From assembly GCF_900114835.1 (NCBI RefSeq), contig NZ_FOUJ01000002.1, positions 328,374 to 392,373 on the forward strand: a DNA stretch of 64,000 bases. Reading direction: 5' to 3'. The notes under the pieces are model-generated. The model made no database searches and had not been told where the DNA came from. It saw nothing but the letters and a program-made list of their open reading frames with translations. Shown in pieces: positions 29,648 to 36,812 of the stretch; within the stretch, counting starts at the first letter, position 1; the number at the start of each line of letters is the position of its first letter. Made by a program: the position numbers and the translations under genes. The DNA is from Methanolobus profundi. Lineage in GTDB: Archaea > Halobacteriota > Methanosarcinia > Methanosarcinales > Methanosarcinaceae.

Positions 29648-31759
29648 TCAGAACTTGCTCCTTAATTTATCATAGAAGGCCTGTTCTTTTCCTTTTGTTT
29701 TCTTGGAGAGTCTTTCCACTATCAATTCAGGAGTGCTCTTTGCAACATAATTATAGCGAGGACTCCTGTCAACAATAAGGTTCAGGTCAGAGTCTAGTCC
29801 ACTTGCCTCGATTCCATCAACCCTTATGTCACAGGTGGTGTTCTCCATGATCTGCTCTGAAAGATGGGAAACGAATATTGACATAGTATCATCATTCTCG
29901 CTAAGCACCTCCAGGATACCTGCCATGATCTTAGCAGATGCACCTGGCTCTGTTATTGATTCAAGCTCATCTGCCAGTACGAATTTTGAAGACTCATCAG
30001 CAACGACAGAGAATTCTGTGAGCGTTGTCTCGAAAGCACCTGCATCAAGTGTCCCTTTAGACTTGGCAAAGTAGTACATCGATTCCGTGAGAGAGATCTC
30101 CATAGCTTCTGCAGGAACAGGGAAACCCATATGCGCAAGGATAATACTTTGTGCCAGAAGTTCCAGAAGTGAGGTCTTACCTCCTGAATTTACACCACTT
30201 AACAATACGACCTTACTCATCTCATCTTCCGGAGAGAAGCTGTTCTCACCTACTGAGTAGTCTATAGGTATAACATCGCCATGTCTGGAAAGCAGGAAAA
30301 GGTTCCTTCCGTTCTTAAAACCAATTCCAGTGCTTGTAGAGATAGCAGGCATAACAAGACCATATGTACATGCAAAAGAACCTATGGCAAAACCCACATC
30401 GAAATCAAGGACCTCTCGGGCAAGTTCCCGGGACAGCTCCCTGTAGGAAGACAGGATACGTGAAACCTCACGCTTATGGTTGAACTTTCTCTTCTGGGAA
30501 CTTTTTATGAGATATTGCTTCAAAGCACCAAGGCTATCAACATCCGCTTCCACCGGATGCATGATATCTTCCGGGAAAAGTGAATCCACCATCAACCGTT
30601 CTTTCTTCTCAAGCTGAAGGTCATTGCATATCTTTTCGATCCCTTGTTTGATTATCGAGTGATAACTCTTGTGAAGCGTCTTACCAAGCATATCCTTAAG
30701 CTCAATAGAGCCGTTCATGACCTTCAGCATATCCTGACCACTTAATGTCATTTGACTCTTCTCAAGACACGAGTTGAGTTCATCATTAACGAAGGTCACA
30801 GACTCCGATACGCAAGACGGAAGTCTTTCAATTGCACTGGTGATCCTGTCAAGTTCTTCATCGGTACCATGGACAATATCACCATCCTCATCGATCAGAG
30901 ATAATGTTGAAGCCAGAAGTTCAAGAGTATCATCGTCCATCCGGTCAAAGAAGCGGATCCCTTTGGAACGCAACAATCTTACGGCCTTTATAGAAGATTC
31001 CAGTGACTTTAAGTTCCTGGAAAATGCAAATATTTCCTTCTCGGGTACAACCTTAAAATCCTCAAGGTCCTGCAGGTCAGTAATGAACTCAGGTTCTACA
31101 TCCTCCGGAAAGTCGAAAGCCAGATAATCATCACCTACAGCGATCACCTGTGAAAATCCTCTGGAAACATCGATGAACTCCGAAAGCGAACGGGTAAAAT
31201 GAACATCAATGAGACCTGCAAAACGCTTCCTTGCATACTCATAGCTATCCTGATCAGATGTTATGATGACCCTGTCCCTTACCTTTGGATATTGATGCTT
31301 GAAATTAAGCTGGGAGACTTTAGGAAGCAATTCTGCTATTGCCCCATCCCCTTCAAGGACAGTTGCTGTTTCCATATAGTAAGAAACTGACCTGCGTATC
31401 TGCATGATCTTTTCAGCCTTACTGCCAGGATATGGGAAGAACACATGTAGTTTATCTCTTGAATAACGTGTGTGTGCGAATTCCTTGATGATATCCAGAA
31501 GTTTCTCATAGACATCCATTGATTCCCTGGTCCTCAGGAAATCGGTCACATTAACGCCTTCCACCCTGGAAGCTACATCCTGTATGAGAGAAATAGCATA
31601 ACGCTGCCCAATACCCTCTACCTCGGATATGCTGGCAATATCACCAGCAAGGATGGCATCAAGTGCCTGATCCTCACTGCCAAAATGTTCAACAAAGCGT
31701 TTTGACATCTTATCCCCTATCCGGGGAATGTCCTGTAGTGACCTGACCTCAGCTATCAT
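29648..31759 (-). CDS. MutS-like ATPase with N-terminal helix-hairpin-helix
   Basis: A 703-residue relative of the MutS/MutS2 ATPases. It starts with tandem helix-hairpin-helix motifs (SLQDIPRIGDKMSKRFV and SEVEGIGQRYAISLI), followed by a long helical core. The C-terminal MutS ATPase has Walker A SGVNSGGKTSLL, a signature ESMYYFAKSKGTLDAGAFE and Walker B KFVLADELESITEPG. No mismatch-recognition domain (Phe-x-Glu) and no Smr nuclease. The ATG overlaps the stop of the DUF4130 gene by one base (TAATG), so it is translated with the radical SAM-DUF4130 pair. Probably a DNA repair or recombination ATPase. Confidence 0.8.
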   Translation of the reverse strand: MIAEVRSLQDIPRIGDKMSKRFVEHFGSEDQALDAILAGDIASISEVEGIGQRYAISLIQDVASRVEGVNVTDFLRTRESMDVYEKLLDIIKEFAHTRYSRDKLHVFFPYPGSKAEKIMQIRRSVSYYMETATVLEGDGAIAELLPKVSQLNFKHQYPKVRDRVIITSDQDSYEYARKRFAGLIDVHFTRSLSEFIDVSRGFSQVIAVGDDYLAFDFPEDVEPEFITDLQDLEDFKVVPEKEIFAFSRNLKSLESSIKAVRLLRSKGIRFFDRMDDDTLELLASTLSLIDEDGDIVHGTDEELDRITSAIERLPSCVSESVTFVNDELNSCLEKSQMTLSGQDMLKVMNGSIELKDMLGKTLHKSYHSIIKQGIEKICNDLQLEKKERLMVDSLFPEDIMHPVEADVDSLGALKQYLIKSSQKRKFNHKREVSRILSSYRELSRELAREVLDFDVGFAIGSFACTYGLVMPAISTSTGIGFKNGRNLFLLSRHGDVIPIDYSVGENSFSPEDEMSKVVLLSGVNSGGKTSLLELLAQSIILAHMGFPVPAEAMEISLTESMYYFAKSKGTLDAGAFETTLTEFSVVADESSKFVLADELESITEPGASAKIMAGILEVLSENDDTMSIFVSHLSEQIMENTTCDIRVDGIEASGLDSDLNLIVDRSPRYNYVAKSTPELIVERLSKKTKGKEQAFYDKLRSKF

Positions 31760-32604
31760 TATACCTCCGACCGAGAAGCAAAACTATCCAGAGTACAGTT
31801 TGCAATTCCCCTTTCAACCTTGTAACTATCCCTTTCTGACATCTTGCTCATAGATGCCGATGCTTTGGGTTGTAAGCCCCTTGCATGACCTTTGTTCCTT
31901 CTCTTTGGAATGAACTGTGAATCATAATACATATCCCACAGGTCGTCTACCTCATCATGCATATCTGCAAACTCCAGACTTCCTGCAAGAGATGCAGGAA
32001 CCTGTGTGTAAGTCTCCAGTCCTACATGGCCACCATTACCGATCCATGCAATATCCCCTTCTATCACTGAAACAGGAAGATCGGGATTCTTCCTTGCAAG
32101 CCAGCGACAGAACATGTCACCTATCTGATGAGGAGAATCCACCTTCACAGTAAGTACTCCATTGACAGAACATGGACGGGCGAACATACACAAGCGATGA
32201 TATGAGCGGCTTACATCACGCATATAATTGTAATATTTCTTACCTGTAACACTCTTCCCGGAATAAAGTAGTTCAGCATTGCCTTCGCACGAACATAGAA
32301 AATGTACAAGCTCGATCGCTCTTGAACTTCTGTGCCTTAGAACCAGAGAGATGTAGCCTTCGACATCAGGATCACGCTGGAACATCCTTAGACGCTGCTT
32401 TCCAAAAAGAGCATTCACGAGTTTAGTAGTATCCTTAGTACCCCTGAACCCAAGAGCCTTGACATTTTCAATACCTGAAAAGTCCATCTTTTGCTGCAGA
32501 TCTTCCCTGTCCTTTGCAGATATGAGTTCACAGCCGAGATCATCCATCAGTTCCATACAGGCAAGAAGGATACCTTCAACAGATTCCCTGAAAGCCACTA
32601 TCAT
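31759..32604 (-). CDS. DUF4130 (TIGR03915-type) protein, uracil-DNA-glycosylase-like
   Basis: A 281-residue soluble protein of the DUF4130 family, whose C-terminal part is considered related to uracil-DNA glycosylase folds. Conserved features are the DVEGYISLVLRHRSSRAIELV segment split around residue 100, GKKYYNYMRDVSRSYHRL and DSPHQIGDMFCRWLARKNP, then FVP-like RRNKGHA near the C-terminus. Members are almost always next to the radical SAM gene found directly upstream here, with a 4-base overlap (ATGA), and the pair is thought to modify or repair nucleic acid. The substrate is unknown. Confidence 0.85.
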   Translation of the reverse strand: MIVAFRESVEGILLACMELMDDLGCELISAKDREDLQQKMDFSGIENVKALGFRGTKDTTKLVNALFGKQRLRMFQRDPDVEGYISLVLRHRSSRAIELVHFLCSCEGNAELLYSGKSVTGKKYYNYMRDVSRSYHRLCMFARPCSVNGVLTVKVDSPHQIGDMFCRWLARKNPDLPVSVIEGDIAWIGNGGHVGLETYTQVPASLAGSLEFADMHDEVDDLWDMYYDSQFIPKRRNKGHARGLQPKASASMSKMSERDSYKVERGIANCTLDSFASRSEV

Positions 32605-33710
32605 GCGCCTACCCCTGCAAAAGAGAAAAGGTTGGTTTGCCTTTTTCCATTGATCTCAATGAACGGACGTGCACGGGTAAGTACAACACCCATACGTGCA
32701 AGTTCCTTCTCCGAACTTATTGGCCTTGACCGCAGGATCCTGTTAGCTCCTACAGGACCGATCCCGGGTACCCTGAGAAGGTCCTCCCTGCTTGCAGTGT
32801 TGATGTTAACAGGGAACATATCAGGACTGCATGAAGCAAGCAGCATCTTGGGATCAACATCAAGAAGGAATCCATTATCATCAAGAACACCATCAAGGTC
32901 ACGTGCTGTCAGGCCATAGTCCTTCAAAAGATACGAGGTCTGATATAGCCTTGTTTCCCTCCAAAGAGGTGAAGCCTCATTGTTCTCAAGAGGTGTAGAT
33001 GGAACCGGATCAAAGCTCATGAAATAAGGCCTCCTTAGTTCATATTTGTCCATGAACCTCTCAACGGTCCCGATGATCTCTCTGTCTGGCTCCTGTAATG
33101 CACCCACTACGAACTGAGTGTCATTGGCACCTATGATCCTGCCTCTGAAACCCTCCTCACGTCTTTTCTTGTTAATGAGGTCACGGGTCCATTGTAAGCG
33201 CTGGAGAACATCGTTCTTATAATCGAAGTTCGGACATATTTCAGAATAGTTCATTGAACTTGTTGTCTCTGCATTCACACCGAACTTATTTGCAGTATCA
33301 GCGATCTCCTCAAGAAGATACTTCGGGGTCCCGGGCATCACACGGATGTGAACGTAACCTGTGAAGCCCTGTTTACGCAGAAGACTTGCAACCTCAAGTT
33401 GTTTTTCTGCGGTCCTCTCAGCATCACCTATTACGCCAGAGGATAGAAAGAGTCCCTCTATAGCATTCCTTCGATAGAATGACCATGTGATCTTCACGAT
33501 CTCCTCGGGAGTTAATGATGCACGCACAGAATCCCTGCCACACCTGTTAGGACAATACGTACACTCCCCAGAGCACGCATTGGTCATCAGGGTCTTATAG
33601 AGCTGTATACAGCGGCCATCCGGTCCAAAGGCATGACAGACAGCGCTCTGATTGCAACTGTCGTATTTCGTGCCTTCGGACAATACTCTCATCCTTTCCA
33701 TAAGCGTCAT
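32601..33710 (-). CDS. Putative DNA modification/repair radical SAM protein (TIGR03916-type)
   Basis: Radical SAM protein; the cluster motif ACSGECTYCPNRC has C-x3-C-x2-C. The N-terminal LSEGTKYDSCN and CHAFGPDGRCIQLYKTLMTN are family signatures with extra cysteines. The C-terminus carries a helix-hairpin-helix (NINTASREDLLRVPGIGPVGA), which points to DNA binding. I use ATG at 33710, giving about 12 residues before EGTKYD as in relatives; ATG at 33743 is possible and would be leaderless with the TATA box at 33767-33774. The longest frame (33785) would contain that TATA box. First gene of a coupled three-gene operon. Confidence 0.88.
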   Translation of the reverse strand: MTLMERMRVLSEGTKYDSCNQSAVCHAFGPDGRCIQLYKTLMTNACSGECTYCPNRCGRDSVRASLTPEEIVKITWSFYRRNAIEGLFLSSGVIGDAERTAEKQLEVASLLRKQGFTGYVHIRVMPGTPKYLLEEIADTANKFGVNAETTSSMNYSEICPNFDYKNDVLQRLQWTRDLINKKRREEGFRGRIIGANDTQFVVGALQEPDREIIGTVERFMDKYELRRPYFMSFDPVPSTPLENNEASPLWRETRLYQTSYLLKDYGLTARDLDGVLDDNGFLLDVDPKMLLASCSPDMFPVNINTASREDLLRVPGIGPVGANRILRSRPISSEKELARMGVVLTRARPFIEINGKRQTNLFSFAGVGA

Positions 33711-33766
33711 ATGGTGCTCATTAACAGGACTTCTGTGGGTCATCAATGAAGCAATATGCAGGGTAT

Positions 33767-33774
33767 GGATATAA
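33767..33774 (-). promoter_or_regulatory. TATA box of the radical SAM-DUF4130-MutS operon
   Basis: TTATATCC on the minus strand; predicts a transcript start near 33743-33746. Confidence 0.45.
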
Positions 33775-33926
33775 GTAACTGGCAAGCGGGGTGAAAGTAT
33801 TACCTCGAAGGATTTTGAAAAATAAAGCCACCGGAAGCCATAAACAAAATATAAGAACAGAATTAGAAAGAGGAAAGAATGTATATTGATATCACGAAGA
33901 TATCGAACATGTAGACATAAAGAGGA

Positions 33927-34481
33927 TCATTCCTCTTTAATCTTAACCTTCACTTTCAATATACTTATAGGCTCCAGTTTCTTCCACATTACAGTAGAAT
34001 TACTGTCAAATTTGAATTCATTAACGTTCTTATCGGAGAATACACCATCTACTTCATAGATGAAAAAGCCCTCTTCGCCATTTGTAGAGACAATATTATC
34101 CTGACCGTGTACATTCTTGACCTCCACGACTGCAGCCTTTTTGAGAGCTTCCAGAAGTGTAGCTCCTTTGTCAACTTCAACTGTTCTTGAAGGTGCAAAT
34201 ATATCCAGTGCATTGAAGATGTTCTTGTTGTTCAATTGCAGGACGTGCGTCTTACCGTAGACCTTACGCAGAATAAGATCAGCATCTTCCAGGATATTTG
34301 CATGCTTTGCAGCAACAGGAACAGATATGCTAAGTTCCCTGGCAAGTTCGGAGATATGCATCTCACCCTCAGTAAGCTTTTGCAGCATCCTGAGTCTTGT
34401 CTCACTACCAAGAGCACTGAAAAGTTTCAAGCGATCAGTGTTCTCCGGGTTCTCGGAATCATTGTTATCGAGAGTGCTCAT
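33927..34481 (-). CDS. ArsR-type regulator fused to a transcobalamin-like (DUF4430) domain
   Basis: Residues 15-95 are an ArsR winged helix (LKLFSALGSETRLRMLQKL, HISELARELSISVPVAAKHANIL). The C-terminal 85 residues resemble DUF4430, the beta-grasp domain also seen at the end of transcobalamin: DKGATLLEALKKAAVV, EEGFFIYEVDGVFSD, then SNSTVMWKKLEP. This looks like a one-component sensor. The ATG at 34481 has a TATA box (34505-34513) 28 bases upstream and no ribosome site, so it is probably leaderless. It lies downstream of cbiZ in the same direction, which makes a corrinoid ligand an attractive guess. Confidence 0.7.
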   Translation of the reverse strand: MSTLDNNDSENPENTDRLKLFSALGSETRLRMLQKLTEGEMHISELARELSISVPVAAKHANILEDADLILRKVYGKTHVLQLNNKNIFNALDIFAPSRTVEVDKGATLLEALKKAAVVEVKNVHGQDNIVSTNGEEGFFIYEVDGVFSDKNVNEFKFDSNSTVMWKKLEPISILKVKVKIKEE

Positions 34482-34504
34482 AAATAGAAGTAATTGATGA
34501 GTCA

Positions 34505-34513
34505 CATATATAG
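34505..34513 (-). promoter_or_regulatory. TATA box of the ArsR-DUF4430 gene
   Basis: CTATATATG on the minus strand, centred 28 bases before the ATG at 34481. Confidence 0.5.
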
Positions 34514-34610: not shown

Positions 34611-35591
34611 TCATGAGTGCAATGCACGCCTCTGCATAGCTATCTTCTCATCCAGAGAATGAATATCATTTGAAACGAACTCATGTGTCAGAAAATCAGG
34701 GGATACAAGATCAACGATCTCAGAACATCTTTCACTTGTAAATGGCATATGGTGATCCATTTGTTCAAGGACACCCATTACAGAGATAAGACGTTCATGA
34801 AATGACATCTCATCAAAACCCGATGGCACTTCCAGCTCCAACGACCTGCGCATATACTCTCCTGAAAGACTGCAATGGAAATGCATGCCTTCGATCCTTT
34901 CTATGAACTCCGCCGAATGAGCTGAAAGGACATCAAGGACCGTGTCAATTGCACAATTCTCATCATCGCAGCTCAAAGTTGCATTCATCAGGTGTCCCGT
35001 ATCAAGCACAAAGGCCCAGTTATCAAAATCCAGCATCTCAGCAAAATGTTCTACGTTCATGGGTTCAAGGAATGTAAGACCCGGCCACCACAGATTCTCG
35101 AAAAAGAGCCTGACCGGCGGTTCCCCTCCGGGATACATGGACACAGCTTTATTTAAGAACTCAGCCGTGGTCGCCAGCACATCATGGTCCGTGCAATCAA
35201 AACAACGCGTGAACACCTGTTCCATTTCAGCATAGGAAACATGGAACACACCATACGAAGCATCAAGTTTTGCTGCATTATCAATGGAAGCCCGGAAATT
35301 ATCAATGACCTCATCACGGCTCCCTCCTCCAAAAACATAAACCTTTTCGAACTCTTCCATTTCCTGGGAGAAAGCGGAAGGGTCAGCCCATGCCCTGTGC
35401 CTCCCCATCCAGTACGGCAGATGAACACCTTCTATCAGGTCAACTGGCACTTCCGGAAGTGGAGATGAATCCACAAAGAGCTCCAGGCCATCAAGATCAT
35501 GCCTGACTAGAAAATTCCGGATCAGGTCCCAATCACTATCGAACATCTTCATATCGGTCTCGTAAAGGGACAGGTTCATCAGTTCTTTCAT
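34611..35591 (-). CDS. TIM-barrel protein (xylose isomerase/AP endonuclease-like)
   Basis: A 326-residue cytoplasmic protein of the sugar-phosphate isomerase/epimerase superfamily. Visible barrel features: DGLELFVDSSPLPE, GVHLPYWMGRHRAWAD, GVFHVSYAEME, RLFFENLWWPG (catalytic Glu region), WAFVLDTGHLMNA (Asp, His) and GMHFHCSLSGEY, together offering the usual metal ligands. Substrate not recognised. ATG at 35591 has GGTG five bases before it. It begins 21 bases after cbiZ ends, so it is likely in one operon with corrinoid salvage and may act on a related substrate; that is inference from context only. Confidence 0.7.
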   Translation of the reverse strand: MKELMNLSLYETDMKMFDSDWDLIRNFLVRHDLDGLELFVDSSPLPEVPVDLIEGVHLPYWMGRHRAWADPSAFSQEMEEFEKVYVFGGGSRDEVIDNFRASIDNAAKLDASYGVFHVSYAEMEQVFTRCFDCTDHDVLATTAEFLNKAVSMYPGGEPPVRLFFENLWWPGLTFLEPMNVEHFAEMLDFDNWAFVLDTGHLMNATLSCDDENCAIDTVLDVLSAHSAEFIERIEGMHFHCSLSGEYMRRSLELEVPSGFDEMSFHERLISVMGVLEQMDHHMPFTSERCSEIVDLVSPDFLTHEFVSNDIHSLDEKIAMQRRALHS

Positions 35592-35612
35592 TTTCACACC
35601 AATATTATGGAG

Positions 35613-36812
35613 TTATTTTTCAAATGCAGTGTTACAGAGACCATCTGTATCACAGTTCTTTGCAAGCCATGCAGTAACACGTATCCAGTTCTCAATGATA
35701 GTATCCTTCTCATCAGTAAGGATATCGAAAGGAATGGAAGCTTCGATCCCAAGCATCACGGGCAGACCCTTCATAATTGAAACCGCCACCTTCCTGCCAG
35801 CGGTCTCAGGTACAAGACCCCAAGAGATCTCATCCACTATATGAAGTATAGACCCTGTGGCACTTACAAGTGCAGGACTTTTCGATAACTCCCGTAGTAT
35901 CTTGAAAAAGGCTGCCTTACGATTATCCCCTTCCATATGGGAAGCTACCTTCCAGTAGTGACCCTCATCGATACCGAACCTCTCAAGTCTCACAAGCATA
36001 TCCCTCTGTGAAAGGACCGTCAGATCAGACTGCATCTCAAGTGCCTTGTGGGTACATTCGATCACAGCCTTCCCTATAAGCTCACCAAGTTTGGAATGAT
36101 GTCCTGCATCCGTTAACAACAAAGAGCTTGTGCCATCTGCCACCACAGCTATCATATCGGTCCCCGATCCCGTGGCAATTCCATTAGAATAACGACTGGG
36201 TGCCATGAGTTGCTGCAAAGCTGCAGTCTTTGCTTCGGTTGCAGTGATAACCGCCCTTGCCATTGCATAATCAGGAAGGTCTGCACCGATGACAAGAATA
36301 GTATTTATGGTCCCCTGAATGAACTGATGAGAACCGTCTTCCTGATAATATGATGCAGGATCTCCGGCACGGCCACCATTGACCTCTATGCCAGCAGTTA
36401 TTATAGCAGTAACTTCCACACCACGGAACGATCTTGTGACTATTGAAACGTTGTCCATATTAGCAGCTGTCAAAAGCCCGGTGGATGTGTCAGGGTCCTC
36501 TCCCAGCCTTTTTGCAATAATAGAAAGATAAGCAGGTATGCTGCCGCCATCCAGTTCCTTAGGAGCATGTTTGCCCTTTGGGACCCTGTGATTGAAAATG
36601 GTCCTGATATCCTCCCTGTAACCACCGTTGAGCCAGGATGTTGTCAGCGTCTTCCTTCCTTCCGGCAGACTGAGAACAATAGAATCCTTTTGTCTGTATA
36701 CTTTTTCCTTTCCCGTGGTCTCAAAAAGAAGAATGTTCTTCTTCTCTGAACTTCCTTCCTGAGACTCAGGGATGGTATCCTGATCATCTGCTTTTTGGGA
36801 CCTTTCTGACAT
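35613..36812 (-). CDS. cbiZ: Adenosylcobinamide amidohydrolase
   Basis: Hydrolyses the aminopropanol side chain of (pseudo)cobamides or adenosylcobinamide to adenosylcobyric acid, allowing salvage and remodelling of corrinoids for methyltransferases. At 399 residues it has an N-terminal disordered extension, the CbiZ core and a longer C-terminal region. Core motifs are SWLNGGYREDIRTIFNHRVP, AANMDNVSIVTRSFRGVEV and ITAGIEVNGGRAGDPASY, then NTILVIGADLPDYAMARAVI. GAGGTTCCC precedes the ATG. The following TIM-barrel gene is 21 bases downstream. Confidence 0.92.
   Translation of the reverse strand: MSERSQKADDQDTIPESQEGSSEKKNILLFETTGKEKVYRQKDSIVLSLPEGRKTLTTSWLNGGYREDIRTIFNHRVPKGKHAPKELDGGSIPAYLSIIAKRLGEDPDTSTGLLTAANMDNVSIVTRSFRGVEVTAIITAGIEVNGGRAGDPASYYQEDGSHQFIQGTINTILVIGADLPDYAMARAVITATEAKTAALQQLMAPSRYSNGIATGSGTDMIAVVADGTSSLLLTDAGHHSKLGELIGKAVIECTHKALEMQSDLTVLSQRDMLVRLERFGIDEGHYWKVASHMEGDNRKAAFFKILRELSKSPALVSATGSILHIVDEISWGLVPETAGRKVAVSIMKGLPVMLGIEASIPFDILTDEKDTIIENWIRVTAWLAKNCDTDGLCNTAFEK

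Follow-up and report, generated by a model that had tools for sequence, protein, structure and literature searches.

The window analysed here is a stretch of 64,000 nucleotides from Methanolobus profundi (contig NZ_FOUJ01000002.1), in which three genes of the minus strand follow one another in the order radical SAM gene with a helix-hairpin-helix (HhH) motif, DUF4130 gene, and gene for a MutS-type ATPase that also carries an HhH motif. They lie behind a promoter element which is shared with known repair genes, and the cluster is probably a DNA-repair operon controlled within a regulon of DNA replication and repair genes. The features at the locus are as follows.

29648 to 31759, minus strand: gene for the MutS-like ATPase, 703 amino acids; its ATG and the stop codon of the DUF4130 gene have one base in common (TAATG)
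31759 to 32604, minus strand: DUF4130 gene, 281 amino acids; its ATG lies inside a 4-base overlap (ATGA) with the radical SAM gene
32601 to 33743, minus strand: TIGR03916-like radical SAM gene with a C-terminal HhH motif; stop codon at 32601-32603
33769 to 33775, minus strand: putative TATA-like box, CTTATAT, which follows the element at a distance of 10 bases and precedes the ATG at 33743 by 25 bases
33786 to 33801, minus strand: upstream element AATACTTTCACCCCGC, without mismatch in the window, common to the promoters of radA, uvrA, hef, recQ and others

The initial annotation of this DNA had proposed a three-part repair system translated from one operon with overlaps of 4 bases and 1 base, and both overlaps are seen in these strings.

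The 16-base element AATACTTTCACCYYGC precedes the TATA-like box, and its copy in the window agrees at 16 of 16 positions, a score reached by none of 500 shuffles. The TATA-like box was aligned in 11 of 11 sequences, and AATACTTTCAC upstream of the radical SAM ATG was identical in all 11 aligned sequences. At 41 of the 41 loci tested in the family Methanosarcinaceae (f1, the family of the window), 10 to 12 of the 12 bases of AATACTTTCACC were found at the operon, a count made without a shuffle control. A scan for sigma-70 promoters and terminators gave counts inside the shuffle range, as expected in an archaeon. Because it fits the conserved promoter, the ATG at 33743 is most likely the start of the radical SAM gene, with a predicted product of 380 amino acids. 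Position 33774, given as the 5' end in the initial annotation, is no codon boundary of the radical SAM frame and sits within the TATA-like box; both it and the mechanical start of the open reading frame (ORF), a TTG at 33785, stand between or inside the promoter elements, and the ATG at 33743 is favoured.

DNA repair is the best reading of the operon because of the genes that appear to be co-regulated with it. The source genome contains 7 exact copies of AATACTTTCACCYYGC and 4 that differ at one base, and when up to two mismatches are allowed 19 sites are found versus 4 in the reversed control. These sites adjoin genes for Hef, RecQ and RadA, the operon itself, and genes for UvrA (one mismatch), Xer-like proteins, a SbmC-like protein, RPA (two mismatches) and a topoisomerase I-like protein (one mismatch; identity below cut-off). 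The identities of Hef, RecQ, RadA, UvrA and RPA were assigned by NCBIfam scores above cut-off, and that of DinB-like by Pfam in one Methanosarcina-type genome. Across 60 family genomes AATACTTTCACNNYGC gave 211 matches versus 5 in the reversed control, and was present in 57 of them. We examined 73 distinct sites, namely those of G000, one taken automatically from each of 30 genomes and 40 chosen from 11 genomes; the operon is under-counted among them because its own site was omitted in several of the chosen genomes. Directly behind 38 of the 73 sites stood a gene for RadA (9), UvrA (6), RPA (6), Hef (5), the radical SAM protein (5), RecQ (4) or DinB (3). The rest preceded a small conserved ORF (11), a second small ORF (5), a MutS-like gene (1), two proteins without known identity (3) or other sequence (15), a twelfth site of the small ORF (L215) being counted under the last class as it was missed by the pattern. 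Taken together, the element points to a previously undescribed archaeal repair regulon, and the repair context suggested initially is much strengthened by it. No description of an archaeal regulon of this kind was found in the literature searched, which excluded bioRxiv preprints altogether and subscription journals for the most part; there the string TACTTTCAC combined with archaea returned matches with unrelated titles only.

The small conserved ORF, of about 26 amino acids and like MDEYFENLVNRATYFEQFEEF, directly follows the element (L215, L244-L246, L248, L256, L274, L275, L285, L289), is longer in genus g100 (70-76 amino acids; L238/L239) and may encode a small protein that belongs to the regulon. 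The second small ORF starts MNTRLT (L212, L272, L277, L283, L296). Behind the element in a Methanosarcina-type genome stand proteins of 128 (L259:1265-1648) and 263 (L263:251-1039) amino acids without Pfam match, both possible new repair genes.

Outside the family, 33 non-haloarchaeal rows comprised RadA (3), RPA (4), UvrA (1), RecQ (1), MutS-like proteins (2), one weak Hef-like protein and, by Pfam, Cdc6, MCM, DEAD_2 and RNase_H_2 proteins; two more Cdc6/DEAD_2 homologues were noted by eye, and the rest were unrecognised. Haloarchaeal copies of TACTTTCACGCCGC were rejected as regulatory, as 8 of the 9 fetched sites have the common context TCCGTACTTTCACGCCGC and seem to lie in coding sequence, presumably resembling the large subunit of PolD. 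Matches to TACTTTCACGCCGC occurred in 0 of 9 genomes of f3 (Methanothrix-type).

The element is also found where the genes are not linked. In family f11 (Methanocella-type) the ATPase genes, which lie apart from the radical SAM/DUF4130 pair, have an element of their own in 4 of 4 cases (14, 14, 15 and 16 of 16 bases, each reached by 0 of 500 shuffles), and the pair has one in 2 of 4 (14 of 16, 0 of 500 shuffles; 13 of 16, 2 of 500), so that in two genomes, G009 and G039, it stands separately at the ATPase and at the pair. It was also found before the MutS-like gene of G255, a 65% complete genome with no match to the pair; that regulon membership of the MutS-like gene depends on the presence of the pair, as the other genomes compared had suggested, is not claimed here in view of G255. 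An ArsR-type gene (33927-34505) neighbours the operon. We judged it unlikely to be the regulator of the element, as no match to it was found in G009 or in two f2 genomes (E 1e-12), where the element is present; the listed 70 genomes with a match include neither the remaining f11 genomes nor G148, G197 and G222 (Methanomicrobia-type).

Several observations weigh against a repair operon in a repair regulon. Fifteen of the 73 examined sites precede nothing recognised, and in f11 the element also stands before the replication genes Cdc6 and MCM. The f11 pairs of G019 and G029 reach only 10 of 16 bases, which 296 and 281 of 500 shuffles equalled, and are therefore at chance level. The element is absent before the ATPase genes of three Methanosarcina-type genomes, of G022 and of one f2 genome, and likewise before those of three f3 genomes; the ATPase is therefore not always in the regulon. 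Finally, a common fold or an HhH motif is no proof of DNA chemistry. Because of the f11 sites before Cdc6 and MCM, the element may belong to the control of replication and not to a damage response: it would then be a promoter feature linked to replication (cell cycle or growth) and no damage switch, and the operon would be expressed with the replication genes. We consider this somewhat doubtful, though far from implausible. The f11 sites before Cdc6, MCM and RPA agree with it, whereas most of the genes recognised behind it in Methanosarcinaceae serve repair (RadA, UvrA, Hef, RecQ, DinB), in a comparison which had no Cdc6 or MCM query and from which their absence is not implied.

The arrangement of the trio is not due to chance but is a conserved tight cluster in Methanosarcinaceae. 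In a survey of 246 genomes of the phylum (E thresholds of 1e-10 for the ATPase, 1e-20 for the radical SAM protein and 1e-5 for DUF4130), matches were found in 140, 87 and 28 genomes, respectively. Twenty-four of the 28 DUF4130-bearing genomes belong to f1, and the three genes are adjacent in all 24; the other four are f11 genomes, in which the pair is together and the ATPase elsewhere. In the 24 family genomes the gap between matches at the first junction is −1 to +14 bases in 23, the exception being G216 (+187), whose match to DUF4130 is partial; at the second junction it is +2 to +68 bases. Among 31 further family genomes the radical SAM gene was found in 18 and the ATPase gene in 29, adjacent in 16 of the 18, with G262 and G274 cut by contig ends. 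Overall, a MutS-like gene directly follows the pair in 40 of the 42 family genomes that bear the radical SAM gene, and contig ends are reached in the other two. This adjacency is kept regardless of the identity of DUF4130, which falls to 36-40% within the family.

A scan of named relatives, limited to the best 80 of 228, gave 43 family and 37 other loci. The trio was found in 37 of the 43 family loci (Methanolobus, Methanococcoides, Methanohalophilus, Methanosalsum, Methanomethylovorans, an ANME3-labelled metagenome-assembled genome and others), and the remaining six end at a contig boundary. In the 37 non-family loci (Methanocella, Methanothrix, Thermoplasmata, Altiarchaeales, Micrarchaeota, Bacillota and others), 25 of which have at least 3.5 kb of downstream sequence, DUF4130 was found in 35 and the ATPase in none. 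Next to the pair, the MutS-like third gene thus stands at every family locus that could be assessed, and at 0 of the 37 loci beyond. Inside the family neither an adjacency confined to this species nor independent transcription of the third gene was indicated, and the operon proposed initially is borne out by a tight trio kept behind a conserved promoter element.

Nine of the 33 family genomes in the phylum survey have the ATPase but lack the pair. It is kept in this way in Methanosarcina-type genomes (genera g6/g7, an inferred label) and in G022, and many genomes beyond the family also carry it alone. In G022 the order ArsR-type gene, ATPase, his genes is kept and the pair is cleanly missing between them. 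In a tree of 27 ATPases, G022 (with moderate support, 83/88) and the Methanosarcina-type clade without the pair both branch within the family, several forks being open; this topology fits an ancestral joining of the trio in the family and no fewer than two later losses of the pair, without proving either. Because the pair stands alone elsewhere and the ATPase is widespread without it, the pair is best regarded as the core and the ATPase as a separable, family-specific addition. Of the three-part system proposed initially, the operon therefore holds within the family, while the functional unity of the three is weakened by an ATPase kept without the pair and a pair without adjacent ATPase outside the family. 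It is quite possible, if not what we would expect, that only the promoter is common, the pair being a real repair unit and the ATPase working elsewhere, in recombination or on Holliday junctions as for MutS5. The nine pairless family genomes, the same syntenic place of the ATPase in G022 and the 37 non-family loci all suit this, as does Pyrococcus MutS5, cited as a Holliday-junction binder (PMC11276520). On the other hand, the trio has stayed adjacent across the family despite the divergence of DUF4130, and in G009 and G039 pair and ATPase each have their own element.

The domains recognised in the first and last proteins are the following.

29849 to 30205, minus strand: MutS ATPase domain of the MutS-like protein (Pfam), residues 519-637, with Walker A SGVNSGGKT and Walker B VLADE
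31580 to 31744, minus strand: N-terminal HhH of the MutS-like protein (Pfam), residues 6-60
32697 to 32810, minus strand: HhH of the radical SAM protein (Pfam), residues 326-363 numbered from the TTG at 33785
33552 to 33575, minus strand: CxxxCxxC cluster motif (alignment A3), C57/C61/C64 numbered from the ATG at 33743

The HhH motifs that the initial annotation had seen in both proteins were recovered by Pfam as HHH_3 in the radical SAM protein (29.9 bits) and HHH_5 in the MutS-like protein (28.5 bits), each above the cut-off of 27. The latter protein also matched MutS_V (34.7 bits; cut-off 30.2), and SGVNSGGKT is invariant in 27 of 27 aligned rows. Its structure model (pLDDT 86.7) matched MutS2 and MutS with Z of 28 and 27.5, which places it in the MutS superfamily; these matches (Z 27-28) extend over about 300-460 residues with a mostly large root-mean-square deviation (rmsd) of 3.8-11. 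No mismatch-recognition domain was detected in it by Pfam at E up to 1. NCBIfam gave 31.9 bits for mutS1, 57.9 for mutS2 and 81.8 for KamC, below the respective cut-offs of 641.7, 400 and 300. Because the source genome has a separate canonical MutS (TIGR01070, 1023.5 bits; cut-off 641.7), the operon ATPase is an extra paralogue. It appears to be archaeal MutS5-like, an identity proposed without comparison with a named MutS5 sequence: like Haloferax MutS5a/b and Pyrococcus MutS5 it is a MutS-type ATPase in an archaeon that also has canonical MutS, but differs in its location within a radical SAM operon. Many haloarchaeal genomes have two matches to it. The best NCBIfam score being that of KamC, the protein might instead be an ATPase that remodels or reactivates the radical enzyme, as the name of KamC implies for lysine 5,6-aminomutase, without acting on DNA. 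However, the canonical MutS of the same genome scores 179.2 bits against KamC, higher than the operon ATPase, and the likeness is therefore one that MutS cores share in general. A role on DNA is also favoured by the HhH at the N-terminus and by the presence of the protein in genomes that lack the radical enzyme. We regard a KamC-like function as very unlikely.

Around the Methanocella-type MutS-like gene two further observations were made. In G009 (L101 8162-10326) it is split over two frames, by a frameshift or a sequencing error, and nearby (L099, L101) lie genes that, judged by eye, resemble the MrfA/MrfB pair of mitomycin repair.

The radical SAM protein matches Radical_SAM (PF04055) with 32.3 bits against a cut-off of 29.5, and with its CxxxCxxC motif, which does not vary across all 19 rows of alignment A3, it belongs to that superfamily. 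It scores 294.4 bits over residues 40-384 with TIGR03916 (rSAM_link_UDG), which is under the curated cut-off of 343.5, and it is therefore named only TIGR03916-like. The DUF4130 protein passes the Pfam cut-off (PF13566, 30.6 bits; cut-off 27) and stays far below that of TIGR03915 (25.1 bits; cut-off 112.25). The operon thus resembles the TIGR03916/TIGR03915 pair in its adjacent radical SAM (HhH) and DUF4130 genes, and differs in that both scores are under the NCBI cut-offs and a third gene is added. In the literature searched no mention was found of TIGR03916, or of UdgX with radical SAM, and DUF4130 was barely mentioned.

The DUF4130 protein had been called glycosylase-like, and this was not supported by Pfam, which gave nothing besides DUF4130 at E up to 1, nor by fold comparison, in which no glycosylase was among the rows shown, although exclusion is not implied. 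The sole link seen to a glycosylase is a genomic association in bacteria (PMC3765255). The structure model (pLDDT 80.3, built from 24 sequences) gave weak Foldseek matches (best E 1.9e-3, TM about 0.3), and VIA-align placed DHH proteins on top: PAP phosphatase (Z 11.2), RecJ (10.9) and human Cdc45 (9.4). The best match extends over 204 residues with rmsd 4.4 and indicates a DHH/DHHA1 fold, as judged from a predicted model with a single aligner. Over the 33 best rows residues 1-216 gave Z of 7.3-11.2 at 5-12% identity; the titles of these rows we take to denote DHH-type proteins or replication complexes holding Cdc45 or a RecJ-like protein. The likeness to DHH/DHHA1 proteins (RecJ, Cdc45, NrnA, PAP phosphatase) lies in the predicted fold of this part, whereas the conserved catalytic Asp and His residues are lacking and identity is 5-12%. 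Alignment A1 has no invariant or near-invariant His and no such Asp before D175, and the catalytic DHH motif was not found in it; the residues conserved in the family (R143, W223, Y227, S229, Q230, R235, R236, N237) differ from the DHH Asp/His set. We infer from the model that DUF4130 may be a degenerate DHH-type (RecJ/Cdc45-like) binder of nucleic acid or nucleotide.

Forms of DUF4130 of about 200 amino acids without the N-terminal DHH-like part occur in Methanothrix and several other archaea (L114, L116, L173-L208). In G002 (L082/L102) the DUF4130 gene is interrupted by an in-frame TAG. TAG can encode pyrrolysine in Methanosarcinaceae, and this codon may be read through as such.

The pair is the conserved unit and probably performs lesion chemistry on DNA. 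In a possible mechanism, a regulator acting on the element would switch the operon; the radical SAM enzyme, with a 4Fe-4S cluster and held on DNA by its HhH, would use radical chemistry to act on bases or sugars that are damaged or modified; its regular partner DUF4130, with a degenerate RecJ/Cdc45-like fold, would hold DNA or nucleotide without cutting; and the HhH-MutS ATPase would bind an abnormal or branched structure and assist in loading or clearing the pair. The core activity would lie with the pair, and the ATPase would be a separable repair protein of wider distribution which the family has put under the same promoter. We tentatively extend this, at somewhat under an even chance, to a LexA-independent, SOS-like damage regulon of methanogens (radA, uvrA, RPA, hef, recQ, dinB and small proteins), with the operon as its inducible lesion-repair module and DUF4130 as a RecJ/Cdc45-like DNA clamp which has no catalytic activity and serves the radical enzyme. 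A common upstream element before repair genes is indeed found, and as in the SOS/LexA regulon a single short element precedes recombinase, excision-repair, helicase and lesion-bypass genes. In contrast, the promoter here is archaeal with a TATA-like box.

Upstream of the locus, at 34611-36812 of the window, lie genes resembling the cobamide-remodelling CbiR and CbiS, with scores below cut-offs.

The radical SAM/DUF4130 pair, widespread and uncharacterised, is now given a specific and testable context in this family, behind the promoter element that it shares with radA, uvrA, hef and recQ. The element suggests that methanogens coordinate repair genes in a regulon, in contrast to a UV study of two Sulfolobus species which reports that repair-gene expression was not increased (PMC2246294). 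The regulation of archaeal DNA repair thereby becomes a question which could be answered by promoter mutation and RNA-seq.

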